This document shows, in pieces, positions 1,572 to 64,000 of a DNA stretch of 64,000 nt. The stretch is from Candidatus Saccharimonadota bacterium (lineage in GTDB: Bacteria > Patescibacteriota > Saccharimonadia > Saccharimonadales > Saccharimonadaceae), in contig JAFWMR010000006.1 of assembly GCA_017513905.1 (NCBI GenBank), forward strand, positions 1 to 64,000. The letters are read 5' to 3'. How positions within the stretch are numbered: position 1 is the stretch's first letter; the number at the start of each line of letters is the position of its first letter. The notes beneath the pieces are model-generated. The model was not told the origin of the DNA. It was given only the letters and a program-made list of their open reading frames with translations, and searched no databases. The position numbers and the translations under genes were made by a program.

Positions 1572-3299
1572 ATGAAACTATTTTCAAAAAAGAGTGGGCA
1601 AAAAGCAATCAAGAGATTTTCTCGTCTCTCTGAAGACGCGGTGATTTCTGGAGAAGCACACATCAAGAAGAACTTCTTTCGTCGGCTTTCTCATATTAGC
1701 GACGTGCGCCTGTTCATTCTAGAGTGGGGCTTGTTAGTATTTGCGCTATTTATGCTCGCATTGACTCAAAGCTTTTGGTTTACGGACTCTTATTCGGTCC
1801 CTAGTTTTACTAGCGGGGGCACATATACTGAAGCGACATTAGGCAAAGTTAGCTCATTAAATCCACTTTTTGCAATCACTAATAGCGAAAAAACCCTCTC
1901 GAAGTTGATGTTTCTAGGCCTTACGGCCTCTGACTCATCTGGCCACATAGGCAACGTTCTTGCGAAGTCAGTCAATTCTGACTCTACAGCCAAAGTTTGG
2001 ACGGTTAAACTAAAAGATAATTTAAAATGGTCAGACGGAGAACCTATTACCGCAGACGACGTTGTATTCACAGCGAAACTTATCAGCGGCCTTGGTCAAG
2101 TCTCCTCATATTATTCCAATCTTAATAATGTGAATGTCGCCATAAATGATGATGGAGATTTGGTCTTCGAGCTACCAGCCGTCTATTCAGAATTTGCCTC
2201 GGCGCTTGATTTTCCAATTCTCCCCAAGCATGCACTTGAAAATGTCGACTCAATGACTCTTCTAGAATCGAGCTTTTCTACCAACCCAATTTCTTCTGGG
2301 CCATTCAGCTTCAATGCGCAACAAGCAGTAGGCACCAATGGTGAGTCGATTATTTATCTAGCGGCCAACCAATACTATTATAAGGGAACACCCAAGATCA
2401 GTAGCTTTGTTGTACATGCCTATCTTTCGGTTGATGACATTAAAACCGCAATCACCACGGGTGCAGTCTCTGCTACAGCCGAACTACTACCGACCGATGC
2501 CGAAGAGATCACTTCTCGAGTTATTTACGAAAAACAAACTGCTATTAATTCTGGCGTATATTTATTTATGAATGCAAAGTCAGGCGTATTTAAAAACCGT
2601 GATGCGCGTAAGGCCGTTCAGACCGGAATCGACATCGCTGAAGTGCGTACGCTGATTGGCGATGAGCTCCCACTTGATTACCCAATCCTAAAACACCAAT
2701 TAGAGCTAGAAAACTGGCCAGCACTTCCAGAACGCAATATCGAAGCCGCAAAAAATACAGTGGCTAGCTTGGAGAATAAAACTATTCGACTTGTCACAAT
2801 TTCCACCGGGTATTTCCCGACAATTCTAGAAGATGTAGCCGAACAGCTTGAAAGTTTAGGTTTCGAAGTTGTTCGCGCAGTTGAAGACCCAGGTCAGGAC
2901 TTCCTTATTAATACCATTGCGAGTCGTAACTACGACATGCTTATCTACGAGGTTGAGCTCGGCGTAAACCCAGATCTATTAGTCTATTATCATTCTTCTC
3001 AAGCTACTCAAAACGGGCTCAATCTCTCAAACTATAACAATTCTATTGCTGATGATTTGATTATATCTGCCCGCGAAACGATTGATGAAGGTGTAAAGAA
3101 ACAAAAGTATGAAGCGTTCTTAAATCGCTGGATCGAAGATGCGCCAGCTATCGGTCTTTATCAGGTCAATCTCAGTTACTATTTTGATAAAAATGTCAAA
3201 CCGTTTTCGGAGGATGTTTCTCTTGTTGTGTCGACCGATCGTTTTGTCGATATACGTTTCTGGGGTGCAGAAAAAGTTATCAGAAATCGCACACCATAG
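1572..3299 (+). CDS. Family 5 extracellular peptide-binding protein, membrane-anchored
   Basis: This resembles OppA/DppA-type (SBP_bac_5) binding proteins of peptide ABC importers. It has 575 residues: a basic cytoplasmic N-terminus, one hydrophobic helix at about 49-67 that should act as an uncleaved anchor, then the binding domain from about residue 85. The family pattern SLNPLF and a WTVKLKDNLKWSDGEPITAD segment followed by DVVFT are clear. No lipobox is seen, so anchoring is by the N-terminal helix. No oligopeptide permease or ATPase gene is adjacent, so its partner must be elsewhere or it acts as a stand-alone receptor. It starts 1 nt after secG. Confidence 0.85.
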   Translation: MKLFSKKSGQKAIKRFSRLSEDAVISGEAHIKKNFFRRLSHISDVRLFILEWGLLVFALFMLALTQSFWFTDSYSVPSFTSGGTYTEATLGKVSSLNPLFAITNSEKTLSKLMFLGLTASDSSGHIGNVLAKSVNSDSTAKVWTVKLKDNLKWSDGEPITADDVVFTAKLISGLGQVSSYYSNLNNVNVAINDDGDLVFELPAVYSEFASALDFPILPKHALENVDSMTLLESSFSTNPISSGPFSFNAQQAVGTNGESIIYLAANQYYYKGTPKISSFVVHAYLSVDDIKTAITTGAVSATAELLPTDAEEITSRVIYEKQTAINSGVYLFMNAKSGVFKNRDARKAVQTGIDIAEVRTLIGDELPLDYPILKHQLELENWPALPERNIEAAKNTVASLENKTIRLVTISTGYFPTILEDVAEQLESLGFEVVRAVEDPGQDFLINTIASRNYDMLIYEVELGVNPDLLVYYHSSQATQNGLNLSNYNNSIADDLIISARETIDEGVKKQKYEAFLNRWIEDAPAIGLYQVNLSYYFDKNVKPFSEDVSLVVSTDRFVDIRFWGAEKVIRNRTP

Positions 3300-3335
3300 T
3301 AGAATTAATTATTTTAGACACAGGCAAGTAAAAAA

Positions 3336-3363
3336 AGATATGCCCTCGAAAGGCATATCTATT
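3336..3363. terminator. Bidirectional terminator
   Basis: A 9-bp perfect hairpin (AGATATGCC at 3336-3344, GGCATATCT at 3352-3360, 7-nt loop). An A-run on the left gives a U-tract to minus transcripts from tRNA-Leu, and ATTTT on the right serves the plus-strand secG operon. Confidence 0.8.
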
Positions 3364-3380
3364 TTCATTTGCTTTATTAT

Positions 3381-3470
3381 TGGTGCGCCTGACTAGACTC
3401 GAACTAGCACAGCACTAAAATGGCCACTACCACCTCAAGGTAGCGTGTCTACCAATTCCACCACAGGCGC
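3381..3470 (-). tRNA. tRNA-Leu(GAG), CCA encoded
   Basis: Read on the minus strand it folds as a class II tRNA of 90 nt: acceptor GCGCCTG pairs with CAGGCGC, discriminator A, encoded CCA (3381-3383), long variable arm, and anticodon loop TTGAGGT giving anticodon GAG (Leu, CUC/CUU). It has its own promoter. Confidence 0.93.
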
Positions 3471-3492
3471 AAATCTATAAAAGTACCCCACA

Positions 3493-3522
3493 ATTATATC
3501 ATACTTTTCTGATTTTTTGCAA
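3493..3522 (-). promoter_or_regulatory. Promoter of tRNA-Leu
   Basis: On the minus strand TTGCAA (3517-3522), an 18-bp spacer and TATAAT (3493-3498), about 22 nt before the tRNA 5' end. Confidence 0.65.
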
Positions 3523-3541
3523 ACACCAGCATATATTTTCC

Positions 3542-3570
3542 TTGTCAACAACACTCATGTCGTATATAAT
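3542..3570 (+). promoter_or_regulatory. Promoter of the ABC/FtsX fusion gene
   Basis: TTGTCA (3542-3547), 17-bp spacer, TATAAT (3565-3570), the same hexamers as the secG promoter. Here a short leader carries AGGA (3587-3590) before a GTG start. Confidence 0.75.
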
Positions 3571-3594
3571 AGAATATAAGTATAAAAGGATAGG

Positions 3595-6500
3595 GTGTTA
3601 GAGTTAAGAAAAATCACTAAGGTTTATGATACTGGTGACTTTAAGCAAAAGGCACTTGATTCTGTTTCTCTTAATTTTAGAAAAAGTGAATTTGCATGCA
3701 TTCTCGGACCTTCCGGCTCTGGCAAAACTACCCTTCTTAATATTATCGGTGGACTCGATAGCTACGATAAAGGTGACCTACTTGTTAATGGTATTTCGAC
3801 CAAGCGCTTCAATAATGCGGCGTGGGATTCCTACCGAAACCATCGCATAGGCTTTGTCTTTCAGAGCTACAATTTGATCCCGCATCAGAGTGTGCTTTCG
3901 AACGTCCGTCTTGCACTTACCGTCTCGGGGCTAGGTAAGCGAGAAGCTACCCGCCGCGCTAGAAAAGCATTAAAAGATGTTGGACTAGAAGAGCACATAC
4001 ATAAACGTCCGGCTCAGCTCTCTGGTGGCCAGATGCAACGTGTGGCTATAGCTCGCGCGCTTGCAAATGACCCGGAGATTATTTTAGCCGACGAGCCAAC
4101 AGGGGCCCTTGATTCAGAGACTAGTATCCAAATTATGGACATCCTTAAAGAGATATCAAAGGACCGTCTAGTTATTATGGTAACTCACAATCCCGATATA
4201 GCTCAAAAGTACTCTACCAGAATTATCAACCTTAAAGACGGAAAAATTATCTCCGACACTAATCCATTTTCGGATATATCCGCAGAGAGGGAACCAATCG
4301 CAGTAAAAAACAAAAAGCACGGTAAAACGTCGATGTCAATGCTGACTGCTTTTTCGCTGTCGGCGAATAACCTTCTGACCAAGAAAAAACGCACACTCCT
4401 CGTTTCTATTGCCGCGTCAATCGGTATTATTGGCATCGCATTAATTATGGCTGTGTCGACCGGATTCCAAAATTATGTCGATTCGATTCAAGAAGAAACC
4501 CTGAGCTCTTATCCGCTCGCTATCACTGAAGAAAGTTTTTCATTTGCCAGCCTCTTCACGTCTGACGCTGATTTATCCGACGGATCAAATAAAAATAGCG
4601 GAAAATCTTATGAAACCATACTCGAAGAATCGGGAAAAGATCTAATTGAATTTCCAATTTTAGGTAACACTTTAAAATCTGTTGCCACTAACGATCTTAA
4701 AAAGTTTAAAAAACATTACGAGGCCCATCAAAACGATTTAAAAGATGCATTGACTAATGTCGCCTACAGTTATTCCATTGACCCAATTATCTATACAATT
4801 GATGCAACTGATAAAGTTGCAAAACTAAACCCATCAGACCTTTTTTCTACTATGTTTGGTGGCAACAATATGATGTCGAGCTTTTCTAGCTTTACGTCAA
4901 TGTATTCCCAGATAAACGTTCCGCCGGATACTTATAAGGCTCAGTACAACGTTCTTAAAGGACGTTGGCCTGAAAGATATGACGAAATAATTATCGTCTT
5001 ACAAAGTGATAAAGTTTTTTCCGATCTTATTGCTTATGAACTTGGCTTAAAAGATACGAGTGAACTCACCTCATTCGTCACTAAGCTCATGCAAGGGGAA
5101 CACGTTGATGTTAAGAATGATCCGATAACTCTAGACTACGACGACTTGCTGAACCTTGATCTTCGTCTTGTCCTCCCGAGTAATGTATATAGATATAGTG
5201 AAAAGTATGGCGTATACGAAGATATGTCTGAAGATAAAGAATATATCAGAGATATTTACAAGAATAAGTCCGAAAAACTTAAAATAGTCGGTGTAGTATC
5301 GAAGAAAGACGGAGTCACTTCTTCCGCATTAAACCCAGGAATTAACTACACCCCAGGTTTGATTGATCATATTATTGAAGAATCGAAAGATGCAAAAATT
5401 GTTAAGAAACAACTCGACAAACCCGAAGTAGACGTCTTTTCTGGCAACCGTTTTGATCAAGAAACAAATAGGTTTAACTACGCATTTGAAGATCTTGTTT
5501 CGGTTGACGAAGAAAAACTAAAGAAAGCGTTTAATGTCGATATCGACCAGGCCGCTCTTCAAAACTCCGTTACGAGCCAGATTGCTGACATTGTTGAGAA
5601 TATTAAAATTGACCCAGAGCCTGCTCTAAACGACTTTGATACAGCCCTTTCTAGTCTAGCTGATGGATTTAAGAAATACATCATGGATTACATGGCTAGT
5701 TTAGCAGAGAAAGGTGAAATATTTATTCCTACCGAAGAGAAAATTAATGAACTCCTAGAATCATATTTAGAAACATACGAACCAGGCGAAAAGCTATCGA
5801 ATCTGGAGGCAACATACAAAATCCCCAAAGATAACTTTAAGGCGGCTTTTAGGAGCCTCGTACTTGCCATAAATGCAGGTATTCCCCTAGATGCTGCAGA
5901 GATTCTTGCAGCGCGCGAAGGTTTTGCTAAGATTATGACCGAAGCTAAGCTCAAAGTTGAAACCGCCGAAAAAGTCGCAAATGTAGTCGCGACAGTTTCA
6001 AACACTTTTGCTAAAAGTTTTAATATTGATCCGTCGGCAATAACTAGTGCTTTTAAGCTAAATTTTAGCGAAGATGAATTAATGCGTATTGTTTCTAGCA
6101 TGATGAACAATACCAAGAAGACGCAGAAATCGAATCTCTTGTCACTAGGTTATCAAGATGAGGAGTCACCTACATATATCTCGTTCTACTTTGCAAGCTT
6201 TGAAGGAAAAGAACAATTCCTTGATTTTATTGACAGCTACAACAACTCCGTCGATGATGAATACGTTATAAACTATACAGATGCAACTGGGATCCTTATG
6301 GACAGCGTACGTACTATTGTCGATGCCGTTTCTTACGTGCTTATCGCCTTTGTGTCTATTTCGCTCATCGTTTCTAGCTTCATGATTGGTATCATCACGT
6401 ATATTTCGGTTTATGAGCGCAAGAAGGAAATCGGTATCCTACGTGCTATAGGTGCCTCTAAGCGCAATGTTAGCAACATTTTCAACGCAGAGACATTCAT

Positions 6501-28277: not shown

Positions 28278-28353
28278 ACGGGTGTAGCTCAGTTGGTAGA
28301 GCACTGGTCTCCAAAACCAGGTGTCGGGAGTTCAAGTCTCTCCACCCGTGCCA
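28278..28353 (+). tRNA. tRNA-Trp(CCA), CCA encoded
   Basis: A 76-nt cloverleaf: acceptor ACGGGTG with CACCCGT, D-arm GCTC/GAGC, anticodon loop CTCCAAA giving CCA, T-loop TTCAAGT, discriminator G and encoded CCA. TG-G-TAATAT (28247-28255) may be its -10. The last 17 bases plus TTA recur 141 bp downstream. Confidence 0.95.
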
Positions 28354-28361: not shown

Positions 28362-28438
28362 GGCGGAGAGACGCAGAACTCGTAGAGTTCAAACCGCCAA
28401 GGAGGCGAGAGAATATCTAGAACTCGTTATAGATATTC
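28362..28438 (+). ncRNA. Structured repeat element, copy 1
   Basis: A 77-nt element about three-quarters identical to 29490-29564. Closing pairs GGCGG (28362-28366) and CCGCC (28394-28398) are GGTGG and CCACC in the other copy, a compensatory change. Inner hairpin GAACTC-GTA-GAGTTC and a second hairpin GAATATCTA with TAGATATTC are perfect here. It lies between the tRNA-Trp 3' end and its duplicate and would be transcribed with the tRNA. Function unknown. Confidence 0.6.
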
Positions 28439-29489: not shown

Positions 29490-29564
29490 GGTGGAGAGAC
29501 GCAAGACTATAGAATTCAAGCCACCAAGAGAACGAGAGGATGGCTGAACTTGGTATAGATATTC
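29490..29564 (+). ncRNA. Structured repeat element, copy 2
   Basis: A 75-nt relative of 28362-28438. The outer GGTGG (29490-29494) and CCACC (29521-29525) pairs are conserved with covariation, as are GGAGAGACGCA, TTCAA, CGAGAG and the terminal TATAGATATTC. The 5' arm of the second hairpin is not conserved (GGATGGCT). No tRNA adjoins this copy. Confidence 0.55.
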
Positions 29565-59486: not shown

Positions 59487-61010
59487 ATGAGAAAAAAAGA
59501 AGTCATCAATAATATAGTCGCAAATCTGGCATTACAGTTAGTAATTATTATTAATGGTTTCATAATACCGAAGATAATCATAGAATCATTCGGATCAACA
59601 ATAAATGGGCTCGTTACATCTATCACGCAATTCTTAGCATATATAACTCTCCTAGAATCTGGATTCGGTCCGGTCGTCAAGTCGTTATTATATAAGCCAA
59701 TAGCTAGCAAGAATAAAAAAGAGATAGAACAAATACTAAAATCATCAGAATCATTCTTTAAAAGAATATCCATCATATTTATATTGTACATTTTACTTCT
59801 GTGCATAATTTTTCCCCACATCACCAATGAAGCATACGACGTAATATATACCGGATCATTGATAATTATCATAGGAATTAGCACTTTTGCCGAATACTTC
59901 TTTGGAATTACGTATAAATTATTCCTCCAGGCGAAACAAAAAACATACATTTCATCAATAATTCAGGTATTCACCTATATATCATCCATAATAGCCGTAA
60001 TAATCCTTGCAAAAATAGGAGCAGGCATACATGTCATTAAGCTAATAAGCGGATTGATATTTGTGTTGAGACCTATTGCGCAAAATATATACGTAAAGAA
60101 AAAATACAATATCAAAATTGGTAAAAAGAAAGAAGAATACCCGATAAGGCAAAAATGGGACGGACTGGCACAGCATATAGCATATGTTATTCATACAAAT
60201 ACCGATATAACAGTACTTACGATATTCTCAAGTTTACCTGAAGTATCGGTATACTCCGTCTATCTTCTAATTATAAAAGGGGTTAAGGCGATTATAGCGG
60301 CAATATCGAACGGAACAGAGGCTACATTTGGAGACATGATAGCAAAAAAAGAAGTTGAAACTCTGCAAATAAGGTTTAACCAATACGAGTCACTATACTA
60401 CACAATATGCACTATGCTTTTTGGATGTTCCATAGTATTAATTACTCCATTAGTATCGATATATACCCATGGAATAACAGATGTAAACTATGTTAGGCCA
60501 ATATTCGGAGCCCTATTGGTAATAAGTGAATTTATCTGGGCTATCAGGCAACCATATAATGATTTAATAAAAGTAGCTGGACATTTCAAGCAAACGAGAA
60601 TCGGAGCATGGGTTGAGTGCATTACAAATATTATCATTTCAATTATATTAGTCCAACGTCTAGGCATAATCGGCGTAGCAATCGGAACTATTGTTGCAAT
60701 GACAATTCGAGCCACAGAGTTTATTTATCATACGAACAAATATATCCTTAAACGCTCGATTTGGGAAAGTATTAAAAAAATACTATTGGTGGTTGTTGAA
60801 ACTATTATCATTGTTTTGATTTGTAACCTCCTTCCGTACCGCGAAAATACAGATTATCTAAACTGGGGAATCAACGCATTAATGACGTTCCTCGTAGCCG
60901 CCGTGGTTGTCCTCGGCACTAATGCAATCTTCTTCCGCAAGGAACTCTCAGAGATCAAAACCCTCTTCAAGTCTCTCCTCCACCGCAAACCCCCCAAACC
61001 CGATAAATAA
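59487..61010 (+). CDS. Wzx-type lipid-linked oligosaccharide flippase
   Basis: A 507-residue MOP-superfamily membrane protein with 12 or more predicted helices and the N-terminal pattern NGFIIPKIIIESFGSTINGL typical of Gram-positive polysaccharide flippases. It should move the undecaprenyl-linked repeat unit outward for the polymerase. The last 150 bp or so return to G/C-richer, host-like composition, and the 3' end (60963-61013) is duplicated at 61949-61998, marking a recombination joint. Confidence 0.87.
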   Translation: MRKKEVINNIVANLALQLVIIINGFIIPKIIIESFGSTINGLVTSITQFLAYITLLESGFGPVVKSLLYKPIASKNKKEIEQILKSSESFFKRISIIFILYILLLCIIFPHITNEAYDVIYTGSLIIIIGISTFAEYFFGITYKLFLQAKQKTYISSIIQVFTYISSIIAVIILAKIGAGIHVIKLISGLIFVLRPIAQNIYVKKKYNIKIGKKKEEYPIRQKWDGLAQHIAYVIHTNTDITVLTIFSSLPEVSVYSVYLLIIKGVKAIIAAISNGTEATFGDMIAKKEVETLQIRFNQYESLYYTICTMLFGCSIVLITPLVSIYTHGITDVNYVRPIFGALLVISEFIWAIRQPYNDLIKVAGHFKQTRIGAWVECITNIIISIILVQRLGIIGVAIGTIVAMTIRATEFIYHTNKYILKRSIWESIKKILLVVVETIIIVLICNLLPYRENTDYLNWGINALMTFLVAAVVVLGTNAIFFRKELSEIKTLFKSLLHRKPPKPDK

Positions 61011-61013
61011 TCC
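60963..61013 (+). repeat. Direct repeat A: wzx 3' end
   Basis: About 51 bp covering the last 16 codons of the flippase gene and the stop. It matches 61949-61998 with about nine differences by eye (shared CTCTTCAA, TCTCTCCTCCACC, CCCAAACCC, AAATAATCC). Confidence 0.8.
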
Positions 61014-61100
61014 ATTTCATCCATTCACTTCCTCTCCTCCTCCGCCCTCGCTTCTACTTCCCGTCACATGCCCACCGCCCACACCACATCCCGCCTATAC
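61011..61100 (+). other. Pyrimidine-rich intergenic tract
   Basis: About 90 bases consisting very largely of C and T on this strand, with no frame, hairpin or promoter seen until TTGCAA at 61101. A similar tract lies at 63910-63980. Confidence 0.6.
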
Positions 61101-61131
61101 TTGCAAAGAGCGTAAAAATGGTTGATATAAT
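61101..61131 (+). promoter_or_regulatory. Promoter of the Abi-C gene, leaderless
   Basis: TTGCAA (61101-61106), 19-bp spacer ending in TGA, TATAAT (61126-61131), 8 nt before ATG 61140. Confidence 0.6.
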
Positions 61132-61139
61132 ATATAAAT

Positions 61140-61898
61140 ATGGACAACGAAGAATTACACCAGACTTTGAAAGATCTCGAGAGCCTCCTCATAGATTATT
61201 CAACAGGTGGACCAAGAGGGGAAGAACAAGAAGATAAGTATACAATACTCAGAGATAAGCTTTTAAAATACGCAACCACAAAAGACCAAGAGCTGAAGAA
61301 AAAAATTCCTGAATCCGTAACAACTTATCGCACCTTGAATTCATTTTGGAATTTCATAAAGAATAAATACAGCCATTATAGCGAACGGAGAGAACATATA
61401 TACATGGATTTCAGTTCGGTCTTTTCTTTAATAGAAAGCCGCCAGTTCGCAGCTCAAGACGACGTCATTGAAGATGACAAACTATTGGGCAAAAAGTTTG
61501 AAGAAGACGTAGCAAAGATAAAAGTTTTGTTAAGCGATGGCTTATACGATTCGGCAATAACCGCCTCGCGAACACTCGTTCAGAAAGTAGAAACTTGGAT
61601 ATTAGCACAAACGACAGGAGCCGATCCAGAATCAAATCTAAACGCAGATAATCTTCACAAAAAAACTATGGTGTTACTTAAACTAGATAGCTCAAAAGAC
61701 TATGACAAAAGGCTCAAAATGATAATCACGGGGCTTAACCAAGTAAATAGTGGCATTGCGCAAATTAGAAATGTTGCTAGCGATGCTCATACTCCAAAGT
61801 ACAAGGCAGAAAGACACCATGCGATACTCGCAGTCAATTCCGCAATTACAATGTGCAGGTTCTTATTAGATTCTATGAACTATCAAAAGAAAGAATAA
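61140..61898 (+). CDS. Abortive infection (Abi-C, HEPN-type) protein
   Basis: A 252-residue soluble helical protein. The C-terminal region TGLNQVNSGIAQIRNVASDA followed by HTPKYKAERHHA and AVNSAITMCRFLLDS fits the Abi_C domain pattern of abortive-infection proteins, and R-N-V-A-S-D-A-H is an R-x6-H HEPN ribonuclease-type motif. Such proteins stop phage spread by RNA cleavage in infected cells. No antitoxin gene is adjacent. It has its own leaderless promoter inside a polysaccharide locus and is bounded by a duplicated wzx 3' end, suggesting horizontal insertion. Confidence 0.75.
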   Translation: MDNEELHQTLKDLESLLIDYSTGGPRGEEQEDKYTILRDKLLKYATTKDQELKKKIPESVTTYRTLNSFWNFIKNKYSHYSERREHIYMDFSSVFSLIESRQFAAQDDVIEDDKLLGKKFEEDVAKIKVLLSDGLYDSAITASRTLVQKVETWILAQTTGADPESNLNADNLHKKTMVLLKLDSSKDYDKRLKMIITGLNQVNSGIAQIRNVASDAHTPKYKAERHHAILAVNSAITMCRFLLDSMNYQKKE

Positions 61899-61948
61899 CG
61901 ACGGACGAGAGTGCAGCAAAGAATTATCCCAACTCGTATCTATTTATT

Positions 61949-61998
61949 CTCTTCAAATCTCTCCTCCACCATAAAAACCCAAACCCAACAAATAATCC
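61949..61998 (+). repeat. Direct repeat B: displaced wzx 3' end copy
   Basis: About 50 bp matching 60963-61013, located 50 bp after the Abi-C gene. It is not part of any convincing gene here; it looks like a residual flippase gene end, including the position of the stop region. Confidence 0.8.
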
Positions 61999-62033
61999 AC
62001 CCATCAGGCTCACTCTGCATTTTAGCGAAATTA

Positions 62034-62042
62034 TGTTATAAT
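62034..62042 (+). promoter_or_regulatory. Extended -10 of the epimerase gene, leaderless
   Basis: TG-T-TATAAT (62034-62042), 8 nt before ATG 62051; CTGCAT at 62015-62020 could be a weak -35. Confidence 0.6.
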
Positions 62043-62050
62043 ATATCTCA

Positions 62051-63097
62051 ATGAACAACTTAAATTTTAATAACAAGACCATCCTTATCACCGGCGCAGC
62101 AGGCTTCATCGGAAGCTACCTTGCTAAACGCGTTTGCGCAGAAAACCCTAAGGCCAAAGTCATTGGCTTCGATAGTGTCAACGATTACTACGACACGCGT
62201 CTTAAAGACTATCGTCTTAAAGAACTTGAGAAGTATAAAAACTTCACTTTCATCAAAGGCAACCTCGCCGACAAGGAATTAGTCAATAAAGTCTTTGCCG
62301 ACAATAAGCCCGATATCGTCGTCAACCTCGCTGCTCAAGCAGGAGTCCGCTATAGCATCGATCATCCTGATGCCTATATAGAAGCCAACCTCATCGGTTT
62401 TTACAATATCCTTGAAGCGTGTCGGCACTACCCGGTCGAGCACCTCGTCTACGCATCTTCTTCTTCCGTCTACGGCGGGAACAAGAAAGTTCCATTCTCT
62501 ACAGATGATAAGGTCGACAACCCAGTCAGCCTCTACGCCGCAACCAAGAAGAGCAACGAGCTTCTCGCGCATGCTTACTCCAAGCTCTACAACATCCCAT
62601 CCACTGGCCTCCGCTTCTTCACCGTTTACGGCCCTGCTGGTCGTCCAGACATGGCCTACTTTGGCTTCACCGACAAACTTATTAAAGGCGAAACTATCAA
62701 AATCTTCAACTATGGTAACTGTAAACGTGATTTTACTTATATCGATGATATAGTCGAAGGCGTTATTCGTGTCATGGCCAAAGCTCCAGAAAAGAAGGAC
62801 GGGGAAGATGGCCTCCCACTTCCGCCATACAAGGTTTACAATATTGGAAATTCCAGTCCAGAAAATCTGCTAGATTTCGTACAGATTCTCCAAGAAGAGC
62901 TCATTCGTGCAAAAGTCCTTCCGGAAGATTACGACTTCGAAGCACACAAAGAGCTCGTTCCGATGCAACCAGGTGATGTTCCAGTCACCTTCGCAGATAC
63001 TAGCGAACTAGAAAAAGATTTTGGCTTCAAGCCTCACACTTCACTCCGCGACGGCCTTCGCAAGTTCGCCGAGTGGTACAAAGAATTCTATTGTTAG
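62051..63097 (+). CDS. UDP-glucuronate 4-epimerase-like enzyme
   Basis: A 348-residue extended SDR epimerase. NAD-binding LITGAAGFIGSYLAKR, the NDYYDTRLKDYRL stretch typical of UDP-glucuronate 4-epimerases, AAQAGVRYSIDHPDAY, ASSSSVYGGN with catalytic Ser/Thr, YAATKKSNE with Tyr-Lys, and FTVYGPAGRPDMAYF are all present. It would supply UDP-galacturonate for the surface polysaccharide. Composition is host-like, unlike the preceding A/T-rich block. Three bases separate it from the next gene. Confidence 0.87.
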   Translation: MNNLNFNNKTILITGAAGFIGSYLAKRVCAENPKAKVIGFDSVNDYYDTRLKDYRLKELEKYKNFTFIKGNLADKELVNKVFADNKPDIVVNLAAQAGVRYSIDHPDAYIEANLIGFYNILEACRHYPVEHLVYASSSSVYGGNKKVPFSTDDKVDNPVSLYAATKKSNELLAHAYSKLYNIPSTGLRFFTVYGPAGRPDMAYFGFTDKLIKGETIKIFNYGNCKRDFTYIDDIVEGVIRVMAKAPEKKDGEDGLPLPPYKVYNIGNSSPENLLDFVQILQEELIRAKVLPEDYDFEAHKELVPMQPGDVPVTFADTSELEKDFGFKPHTSLRDGLRKFAEWYKEFYC

Positions 63098-63100
63098 TAT

Positions 63101-63832
63101 ATGAAATGCATTATCCTCGCCGCTGGCTACGCTACTAGACTCTATCCTCTCACCGAAAACTTCCCGAAGCCACTTCTAGAAGTAGCAGGTAAGCCCATTC
63201 TTAATCACCTTGTCGGCGACATCGACGGAGACGGTTTCGTCGACGAATATATCATCGTCTCTAACCATAAATTCGCTAAAAACTTCAACGATTGGGCAAA
63301 AACACTCCCGCAGAGAATTACCGTGCTCGATGACGGAACTGAGACTAACGAAACACGCCTTGGAGCCGTTAAGGATATCCAGTTTGCCATACGTGAGCTT
63401 AATGTTGACGACGATTGTTTTGTTATGGCCGGTGATAACCTACTCGACTTTAGTCTTTGCAAATTCCTAGACTTTTCACGTGAAAAACAAACATCTTGTG
63501 CAATGTATTACAAAGAATCGAACACTGAAAAACTCACTAAGACCGGCATACTTGAAATCAAAGACGATATCGTTGTGGGTATGGAAGAGAAACCCAAGAA
63601 CCCAAAAAGCAACTACGTCTGCCCACCGTTCTACTATTATGTTGCTGAGGATATTGCTAAGATTAACGATGCGCTTGCCGACGGGTGCGAATACGACGCT
63701 CCTGGTTCATTCTTAGCTTGGCTTTGCCACAAATCTCCCGTTCACGTCCACGAAATGCCAGGGAATCGCTACGACATCGGCACTCTGGAATCGTACAAAG
63801 CGGTCAAGAAGCACTTCGAACAGGGCGACTAG
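63101..63832 (+). CDS. Sugar-1-phosphate nucleotidyltransferase
   Basis: A 243-residue RmlA/GalU-like nucleotidyltransferase that makes NDP-sugars from sugar 1-phosphates. The N-terminal signature AAGYATRLYPLTENFPKPLL (AAGY rather than the usual AGG-x-GTR) carries the catalytic Arg and Lys; VMAGDNLLDFS has the metal-binding Asp, and GILEIKDDIVVGMEEKPKNP is typical. The specific nucleotide and sugar cannot be told. It forms an operon with the epimerase. Confidence 0.87.
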   Translation: MKCIILAAGYATRLYPLTENFPKPLLEVAGKPILNHLVGDIDGDGFVDEYIIVSNHKFAKNFNDWAKTLPQRITVLDDGTETNETRLGAVKDIQFAIRELNVDDDCFVMAGDNLLDFSLCKFLDFSREKQTSCAMYYKESNTEKLTKTGILEIKDDIVVGMEEKPKNPKSNYVCPPFYYYVAEDIAKINDALADGCEYDAPGSFLAWLCHKSPVHVHEMPGNRYDIGTLESYKAVKKHFEQGD

Positions 63833-63977
63833 AAAAAAACTTGTATCTCTAGCCGGCGGTGGTTCTATATTGATCTTTCTCTAGCAACATCGCTCTCGAA
63901 ACTTCAACTCCTCTTCTACTTCTTCCTCCACCTTCTTTTTACGCCACCTACCGTTGTCCTCGCCAATCTTCATTCCT
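63833..63977 (+). other. Intergenic region, partly pyrimidine-rich
   Basis: No gene is recognised. The second half is mostly C and T with little G, like 61011-61100. Confidence 0.5.
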
Positions 63978-64000
63978 CTTATGCTTAAAATAAGCATAAG
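63978..64000. other. Perfect 10-bp inverted repeat at window end
   Basis: CTTATGCTTA (63978-63987), AAA, TAAGCATAAG (63991-64000). It could be a terminator-type hairpin, an operator, or overlapping divergent -10 elements; the flank is cut by the window edge. Confidence 0.6.

Follow-up and report, generated by a model that had tools for sequence, protein, structure and literature searches.

The locus

The window, by which we mean the whole stretch of 64,000 nt that was analyzed, comes from a Saccharibacteria genome of 919,513 bases. Four forward-strand genes lie in its last 5 kb: an ORF for a flippase-like (Wzx-type) membrane protein of 507 aa (59487 to 61010); abi, which encodes a 252-aa AbiJ-like Abi_C/HEPN protein, the predicted RNase effector (61140 to 61898); a gene for an NAD-dependent sugar epimerase (62051 to 63097; PF01370, 9.8e-58); and a gene for a nucleotidyltransferase (63101 to 63832; PF00483, 7.6e-26). 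The first and third of these are the upstream and downstream borders of the gap, or slot, that abi occupies. The 507-aa protein itself has no significant match in Pfam, NCBIfam or the PDB sequences, and it is labeled a flippase indirectly, from its homologue and from the genes found at the same place in relatives, where homologues adjoin the epimerase. The homologue at locus L082 has 24% identity, and the genes at this position match Polysacc_synt (PF01943) at 2e-11 in L082 and 2e-10 in L094.

Codon usage varies along this region. The glycosyltransferase, polymerase-like and flippase-like genes between 54984 and 60866 probably form an imported block: their GC3 values are 0.28 to 0.33, whereas earlier ORFs average 0.44 and the gene that opens the polysaccharide block has 0.63. 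The window epimerase is 75 to 84% identical to proteins whose contigs bear the names of gut Clostridia, Bacilli and Bacteroidales, a likeness that suggests exchange of polysaccharide genes across phyla. Beyond the epimerase is a second variable gap, which ends at a conserved gene that by eye is UDP-sugar 6-dehydrogenase-like in 20 of 27 loci. Here (63101 to 64000 and beyond; 13102 to 14743 of L045), the nucleotidyltransferase gene and a 225-aa gene precede the sugar-dehydrogenase-like gene; the nucleotidyltransferase was not found in the relatives' loci, and genome G051 has a PemK gene in this second gap.

Both abi and the epimerase gene appear to have promoters of their own. A spacer (61015 to 61139) with a predicted abi promoter separates the flippase-like gene from abi, and a TATAAT -10-like box at 61126 to 61131, 8 nt before the ATG, predicts a leaderless start. 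A second such box lies at 62037 to 62042, again 8 nt before the ATG, in front of the epimerase gene, and as a raw count, an exact TATAAT occurs no more than 30 nt from a candidate epimerase start in 18 of the 27 loci. Both genes are probably leaderless, and their expression probably does not depend on the upstream operon. With a promoter belonging to the epimerase itself, an insertion in front of it would break no operon, which may be why the gap tolerates cargo; independent promoters would make it a safe landing place.

The Abi_C/HEPN protein

The sequence-only reading of this DNA had ascribed Abi-C features and an R-x6-H HEPN motif to the abi product, and profile searches bear this out. Abi_C (PF14355) matches at E 4.9e-15 with 55.8 bits and, in a second scan that places the match at 61650 to 61871, with 58.1 bits, against a gathering cut-off of 24. 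The PADLOC AbiJ model matches at 1.8e-23 over model positions 154 to 275, which is the C-terminal half of the model only, and PHROG 23253, a family whose function is unknown, matches at 2.6e-23 over nearly the full length. The motif spans codons R210 to H217 (61767 to 61790), and R210, N211, D215 and H217 are invariant in alignments of 9 and of 16 sequences. The arrangement R210-N211-x5-H217 has the form that defines HEPN proteins in the available text of PMC3710099, R-x4-6-H with a polar residue after the arginine.

An AlphaFold model built from the 16-sequence alignment is all helical (pLDDT 81, pTM 0.49). In this predicted structure, residues 110 to 248 superimpose on 2hsb with a Z of 11.9 (3.6 Å, 122 residues). 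All 11 PDB entries with a Z of at least 8 align within residues 109 to 252; five are titled HEPN (2hsb, 3o10, 1o3u, 1wol and 4nqf), and the remainder we take to be HEPN, Csm6 or toxin-antitoxin MntA-HepT-type chains. Helical folds inflate Z, and unrelated entries start near 7.4, below the HEPN entries. Foldseek alone found nothing better than E 0.2 for the model among PDB structures, and the single sequence had no relative among the PDB sequences at E up to 1. A profile search brought up FliS and a transport chimera as the best PDB relatives, at E 0.056 to 0.058, and these were not believed. The C-terminal half of the protein is thus predicted to adopt a HEPN helical fold. The N-terminal half has no Pfam match at E up to 1, nor has any part of residues 1 to 170, and the protein has no match in NCBIfam.

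In itself, abi encodes an ordinary Abi_C protein. It aligns over its full length, at 27 to 33% identity, with the stand-alone Abi_C proteins of about 250 aa annotated as "abortive infection family protein," and it has in common with them the invariant R-x6-H and HA.L.VN.A motifs; unlike them, it is located in a Saccharibacteria polysaccharide locus rather than on a plasmid or in a prophage. AbiJ, as described in the available text of PMC3710099, is a HEPN family whose N-terminal domains are exchangeable and may serve to sense phage, and AbiJ proteins without the named N-terminal domains 1 to 5 are described as well. The abi product has the AbiJ-type C-terminal HEPN; its N-terminal half differs in matching no Pfam family at E up to 1.

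Distribution and probable function

Relatives of abi travel. In tblastn searches of plasmid records, 42 match abi, and in 14 of these the alignment spans 80% or more of the protein, with identities of 27 to 33%, in hosts that include Pseudomonas, Vibrio, Paracoccus, Roseomonas and others. Among IMG/VR viral contigs, 23 loci encode relatives, and the phage records hold one partial match. GTDB contigs scanned with the abi protein gave 20 pattern matches, none of them a relative. Since full-length relatives are found on plasmids and viral contigs, abi itself was probably acquired horizontally, as judged from these sequence comparisons. Its GC3 of 0.38, compared with 0.44 (sd 0.05) for the 33 ORFs before 51.5 kb, is not decisive alone.

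Within the lineage, 4 of the 174 genomes of the genus and 8 of 392 from the order contain Abi_C. The whole abi protein has matches in 3 of 99 relatives, two of these at the C-terminus only, and in 2 of 379 phylum genomes, the other one over residues 111 to 251. This scatter points to sporadic acquisition. The genus has three further Abi_C genes (L096, L097 and L098), which differ in their N-terminal half and are located elsewhere; by eye, the neighbors of those in L096 and L097 are DNA-methylase-like genes. As the sequence-only reading had anticipated for a variable locus, the gene is not constant among relatives, and only here does an Abi_C gene lie in this slot. All sequences compared are draft contigs, and no strain of the same species without abi was seen among them.

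The predicted role of abi is in phage defense. The helical N-terminal half (residues 1 to 106) would sense infection and otherwise hold the HEPN RNase inactive, the C-terminal HEPN RNase (residues 109 to 252, with R210 and H217) would cut RNA on infection, and the cutting of RNA would stop the cell before the phage spreads. The argument of the sequence-only reading, that such a gene suits a surface-polysaccharide locus since the polysaccharide is a phage receptor, is plausible. The likeliest of the alternatives is that this Abi_C protein is not directed against phage and acts instead in a stress response or, like a toxin-antitoxin system, in conflict between bacteria. The same gap in relatives does carry toxin-type PemK and CdiA_C genes, as would suit such a role; however, plasmids and viral contigs carry members of the abi family, in one instance next to methyltransferase and helicase genes, and we regard a role other than phage defense as rather unlikely.

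Cargo in the gap of related genomes

An epimerase match is present in 32 of the 174 genus genomes. A survey of the gap, defined as running from the flippase gene (or the last polysaccharide gene) to the epimerase, used the 27 in which this match is long and excluded the other five (G022, G122, G124, G149 and G174), their matches being of 21 to 34 bases only. Up to about 15 kb upstream was included, as contigs allowed. The contigs with the closest epimerases carry the name Candidatus Saccharibacteria, and sheep, goat and rumen samples are the source of most of them. The gap contains defense- or toxin-type genes in 6 of the 27 loci, sugar-modifying genes in 7, an unassigned gene in 1, a decayed toxin gene in 1 and no gene, meaning no ORF of at least 70 aa, in 12.

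The six of the first class are varied. Besides the Abi_C gene of the window (G000), the slot holds a full-length PDC-S56 gene (1.1e-171) with CdiA_C in G048, a protein kinase gene (its PADLOC matches fall mainly over the kinase domain) with CdiA_C in G166, CdiA_C with an ATPase gene in G110, PemK in G010 and, in G133, a 6.5-kb insert in which GajA-like (7e-22) and GajB-like (9e-14) genes, that is, a Gabija-like pair, lie with other genes. Sugar-type genes (acyltransferase, glycosyltransferase, DUF6625, DUF1919) occupy the slot in G151, G134, G192, G036, G201, G160 and G153. The single gene of G025 (L039) belongs to no Pfam family and was counted as unassigned, and G039 has a decayed CdiA_C. 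An opposite-strand ORF of 85 aa that overlaps the epimerase start in L038 was disregarded, contig ends truncate L035 and L040, and for L092, in which no flippase was found and the upstream border is therefore undefined, the slot content is less certain.

Unrelated defense cargo of at least five unrelated kinds is thus found in this one gap, in 6 of 27 loci, and the flippase-epimerase gap of the genus is a swap slot. Two expectations of the sequence-only reading were both realized: in some relatives the flippase adjoins the epimerase with nothing between, and in others the place is taken by different cargo. It could be argued that polysaccharide loci vary throughout and that defense genes come to lie there by chance, in which case the slot would be no hotspot. 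In line with such an argument, CdiA_C (PF18451) and PemK genes are common elsewhere in the genus, being present in 118 and 60 of its 174 genomes, and G048 and G166 have nearly the same CdiA_C stretch and consequently do not represent two independent events. Against it stand at least five unrelated kinds of defense or toxin gene in a single defined gap among 27 genomes, and we consider this explanation unlikely.

Toxin genes and candidate RNA partners in relatives

The small CdiA_C ORFs of the genus, of which a genome can carry up to nine copies, and its PemK/MazF-like genes are followed by candidate RNA elements. In L257 to L276, L044, L081, L092 (in the slot), L218, L223, L224 and L226, a TTGAC-N17-TATAAT-like promoter overlaps the last codons of CdiA_C and is followed by a structured RNA of about 50 nt, often ending in a T-run, of which there are several classes. 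Of the first 20 CdiA_C loci in the list, 12 have at least 10 of the 12 promoter positions, compared with 5.9% of 289 control ORF ends, and the 58 nt after the promoter have a mean folding energy of -17.1 kcal/mol, compared with -7.3 kcal/mol for controls. One RNA class, with five sequences, has 14 predicted pairs, 6 of them changed on both sides; a second, with four sequences, has 15 pairs, 8 of them changed on both sides. From these sequence features, the RNAs look like candidate RNA antitoxins of candidate toxins.

The PemK/MazF-like genes have a convergent 3' element with a TATAAT-like box in front, which reads on the opposite strand TTCGGGRATACCCG, followed by a variable hairpin and a T-run. 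It was seen in L228 to L231, L233, L234, L236, L237, L239, L240, L242, L247, L250, L253, L255, L256 and L035; a strict pattern finds it in 7 of 10 loci and in 9 of 20 further loci. This element is a candidate antisense or RNA-antitoxin gene. Orphan copies lie near the epimerase in L044, L081, L087, L090, L091 and L092. Rfam at its gathering score has no match in nine of the relatives' loci and, in the window, finds four tRNAs only. The window's own genome contains neither a CdiA_C or PemK match nor a copy of the PemK-linked element. Within the open-licence literature, including the available portions of PMC13059738 and PMC12455944, no description of the slot or of the RNA-toxin pairs was found.

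The repeated flippase end and a proposed history of the insertion

The 3' end of the flippase gene is repeated after abi. Copy 1 (60963 to 61014) comprises the last 16 flippase codons, the stop and 4 nt beyond, and copy 2 (61949 to 61999) is separated from the end of abi by a junction of 50 nt (61899 to 61948). In a local alignment of the two, which has one gap, 44 of 52 columns are identical; its score of 62 was reached by none of 2000 dinucleotide shuffles (largest shuffle score 37). Among 418 real control pairs at the same offset in the window, the best unrelated score is 57. Across the whole genome of 919,513 bases, the stretch has one second copy only (E 2e-9, 85%) and no third, and a 22-nt core with up to three mismatches occurs in the window at these two places only, with 0 expected. 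Copy 2 stays in frame (LFKSLLHHK...) until a 1-nt deletion removes its stop, and it is therefore non-coding debris. The repeat, which the sequence-only reading had placed correctly to 1 nt in both copies, is thus genuine, and low-complexity similarity is ruled out as its origin by the shuffles, the uniqueness of the core, the single second copy and the kept frame. The control pair that scored 57 is itself an imperfect direct repeat of about 73 nt (28362 to 28435 and 29490 to 29561), which flanks a segment of about 1 kb with one 247-aa gene and adjoins a tRNA gene (28278 to 28350).

Copy 2 is most likely the stump of a resident flippase gene, left as a recombination scar. From its end to the epimerase start is about 56 nt, and in relatives with an empty gap (L041, L094, L042, L085 and L037) the distance from the flippase stop to the epimerase is 66 to 126 nt; copy 2 therefore sits about where a resident flippase gene should end. 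The flippase gene now in the window is a mosaic, as judged from its composition and its alignment: its last 48 codons (60867 to 61010) are host-like, with a GC3 of 0.65 compared with 0.32 for the rest, and nucleotide identity to its closest relative, in G151, is 0.55 to 0.73 over codons 1 to 400 and 0.72 to 0.78 over the last 107. In the proposed sequence of events, the ancestral flippase gene would have ended at copy 2, about 56 nt before the epimerase. A donor polysaccharide block with its own flippase 3' end and abi would then have recombined in from the left, and the donor's right end would have formed an illegitimate junction within the final codons of the resident flippase, leaving a stump of 51 nt. 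Grouping copies 1 and 2 with the allele of the nearest relative, G151, gives no clean result; a descent of copy 2 from that allele is no more than possible, donor and resident are consequently putative, and the repeat may be an old local duplication.

The sequence-only reading had taken the repeats to delimit a discrete mobile cassette, and this is not supported. Such a cassette would have entered by a Campbell-type single crossover of a circle or concatemer carrying a flippase tail and abi, and it could be excised again between the tails. Two copies in the same orientation do flank a segment of 934 nt with one gene. However, they differ by 15% over 51 nt, which gives excision little homology to act on, a comparable tail repeat is absent from the 18 other loci tested, and no recombinase gene was found nearby. 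The insert of about 1 kb contains only one ORF of at least 100 aa and no recombinase gene, and an insertion-sequence test found neither a transposase gene nor, at the settings used, a pair of inverted repeats bounding it. Flank duplication was tested in 22 loci, the gap being too short in the other 5: the tail of the upstream gene is clearly duplicated in 1 of 19 loci, the window, and the head of the epimerase in 1 of 22, G192 (score 58, 0 of 100 shuffles). Weak scores for the head in L038 (32) and the tails in L091 (31) and L086 (34) were not counted as duplications, the first two being above all 100 shuffles. There is thus no common border repeat, the flippase-tail repeat is ruled out as a general signature of insertion, and a mobile cassette is distinctly improbable.

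Equally improbable is an arrival of abi by another route followed by a copying of the flippase tail downstream through replication error; the copies do have the bases of the stop codon and the next 4 nt in common, as this would predict, but they are 1 kb apart with abi in between, and copy 2 is located where the ancestral flippase end would lie.

Debris of another kind is seen in G192 (L084, oriented 3077 to 4079), in which a decayed second epimerase start lies between the cargo and the epimerase, together with what by eye are several orphan small-RNA elements without a CdiA_C gene. We read this stretch as recombination debris in which the RNA was retained after loss of the toxin gene.

Interpretation

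The reading that we prefer, with a probability of roughly 0.65, is that abi is a horizontally acquired, stand-alone AbiJ-like defense gene and that its gap, with the end of the polysaccharide block on one side and a separately promoted epimerase on the other, is prone to recombination. It is a known kind of gene, and what is notable is its location. A parallel is with the core defense hotspots of Pseudomonas, as presented in the available text of PMC10250203, which likewise have one defined gap with exchangeable, unrelated defense cargo. Compared with what that text describes, one border here is the variable polysaccharide block itself, the cargo mixes defense genes with sugar-modifying genes, and no mobile-element gene is found at the window's insert.

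Saccharibacteria have very small genomes, and to our knowledge, little is known of their resistance to phage. A gap that repeatedly carries unrelated genes of the defense or toxin type is worth searching for further such genes, and the position of the slot beside the polysaccharide block suggests that a single step can alter both receptor and immunity. A broader and more tentative reading, possible though on balance doubtful, is that this gap is a standing exchange slot of ruminant-gut Saccharibacteria, in which surface-sugar genes are swapped together with intracellular immunity or addiction modules by recombination in the conserved flanks; the modules would be Abi, Gabija-like, PDC-S56 and kinase genes, and PemK and CdiA_C genes with their apparent small-RNA partners. 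If this were true, one transfer would change both the phage receptor and the intracellular defense of the cell.
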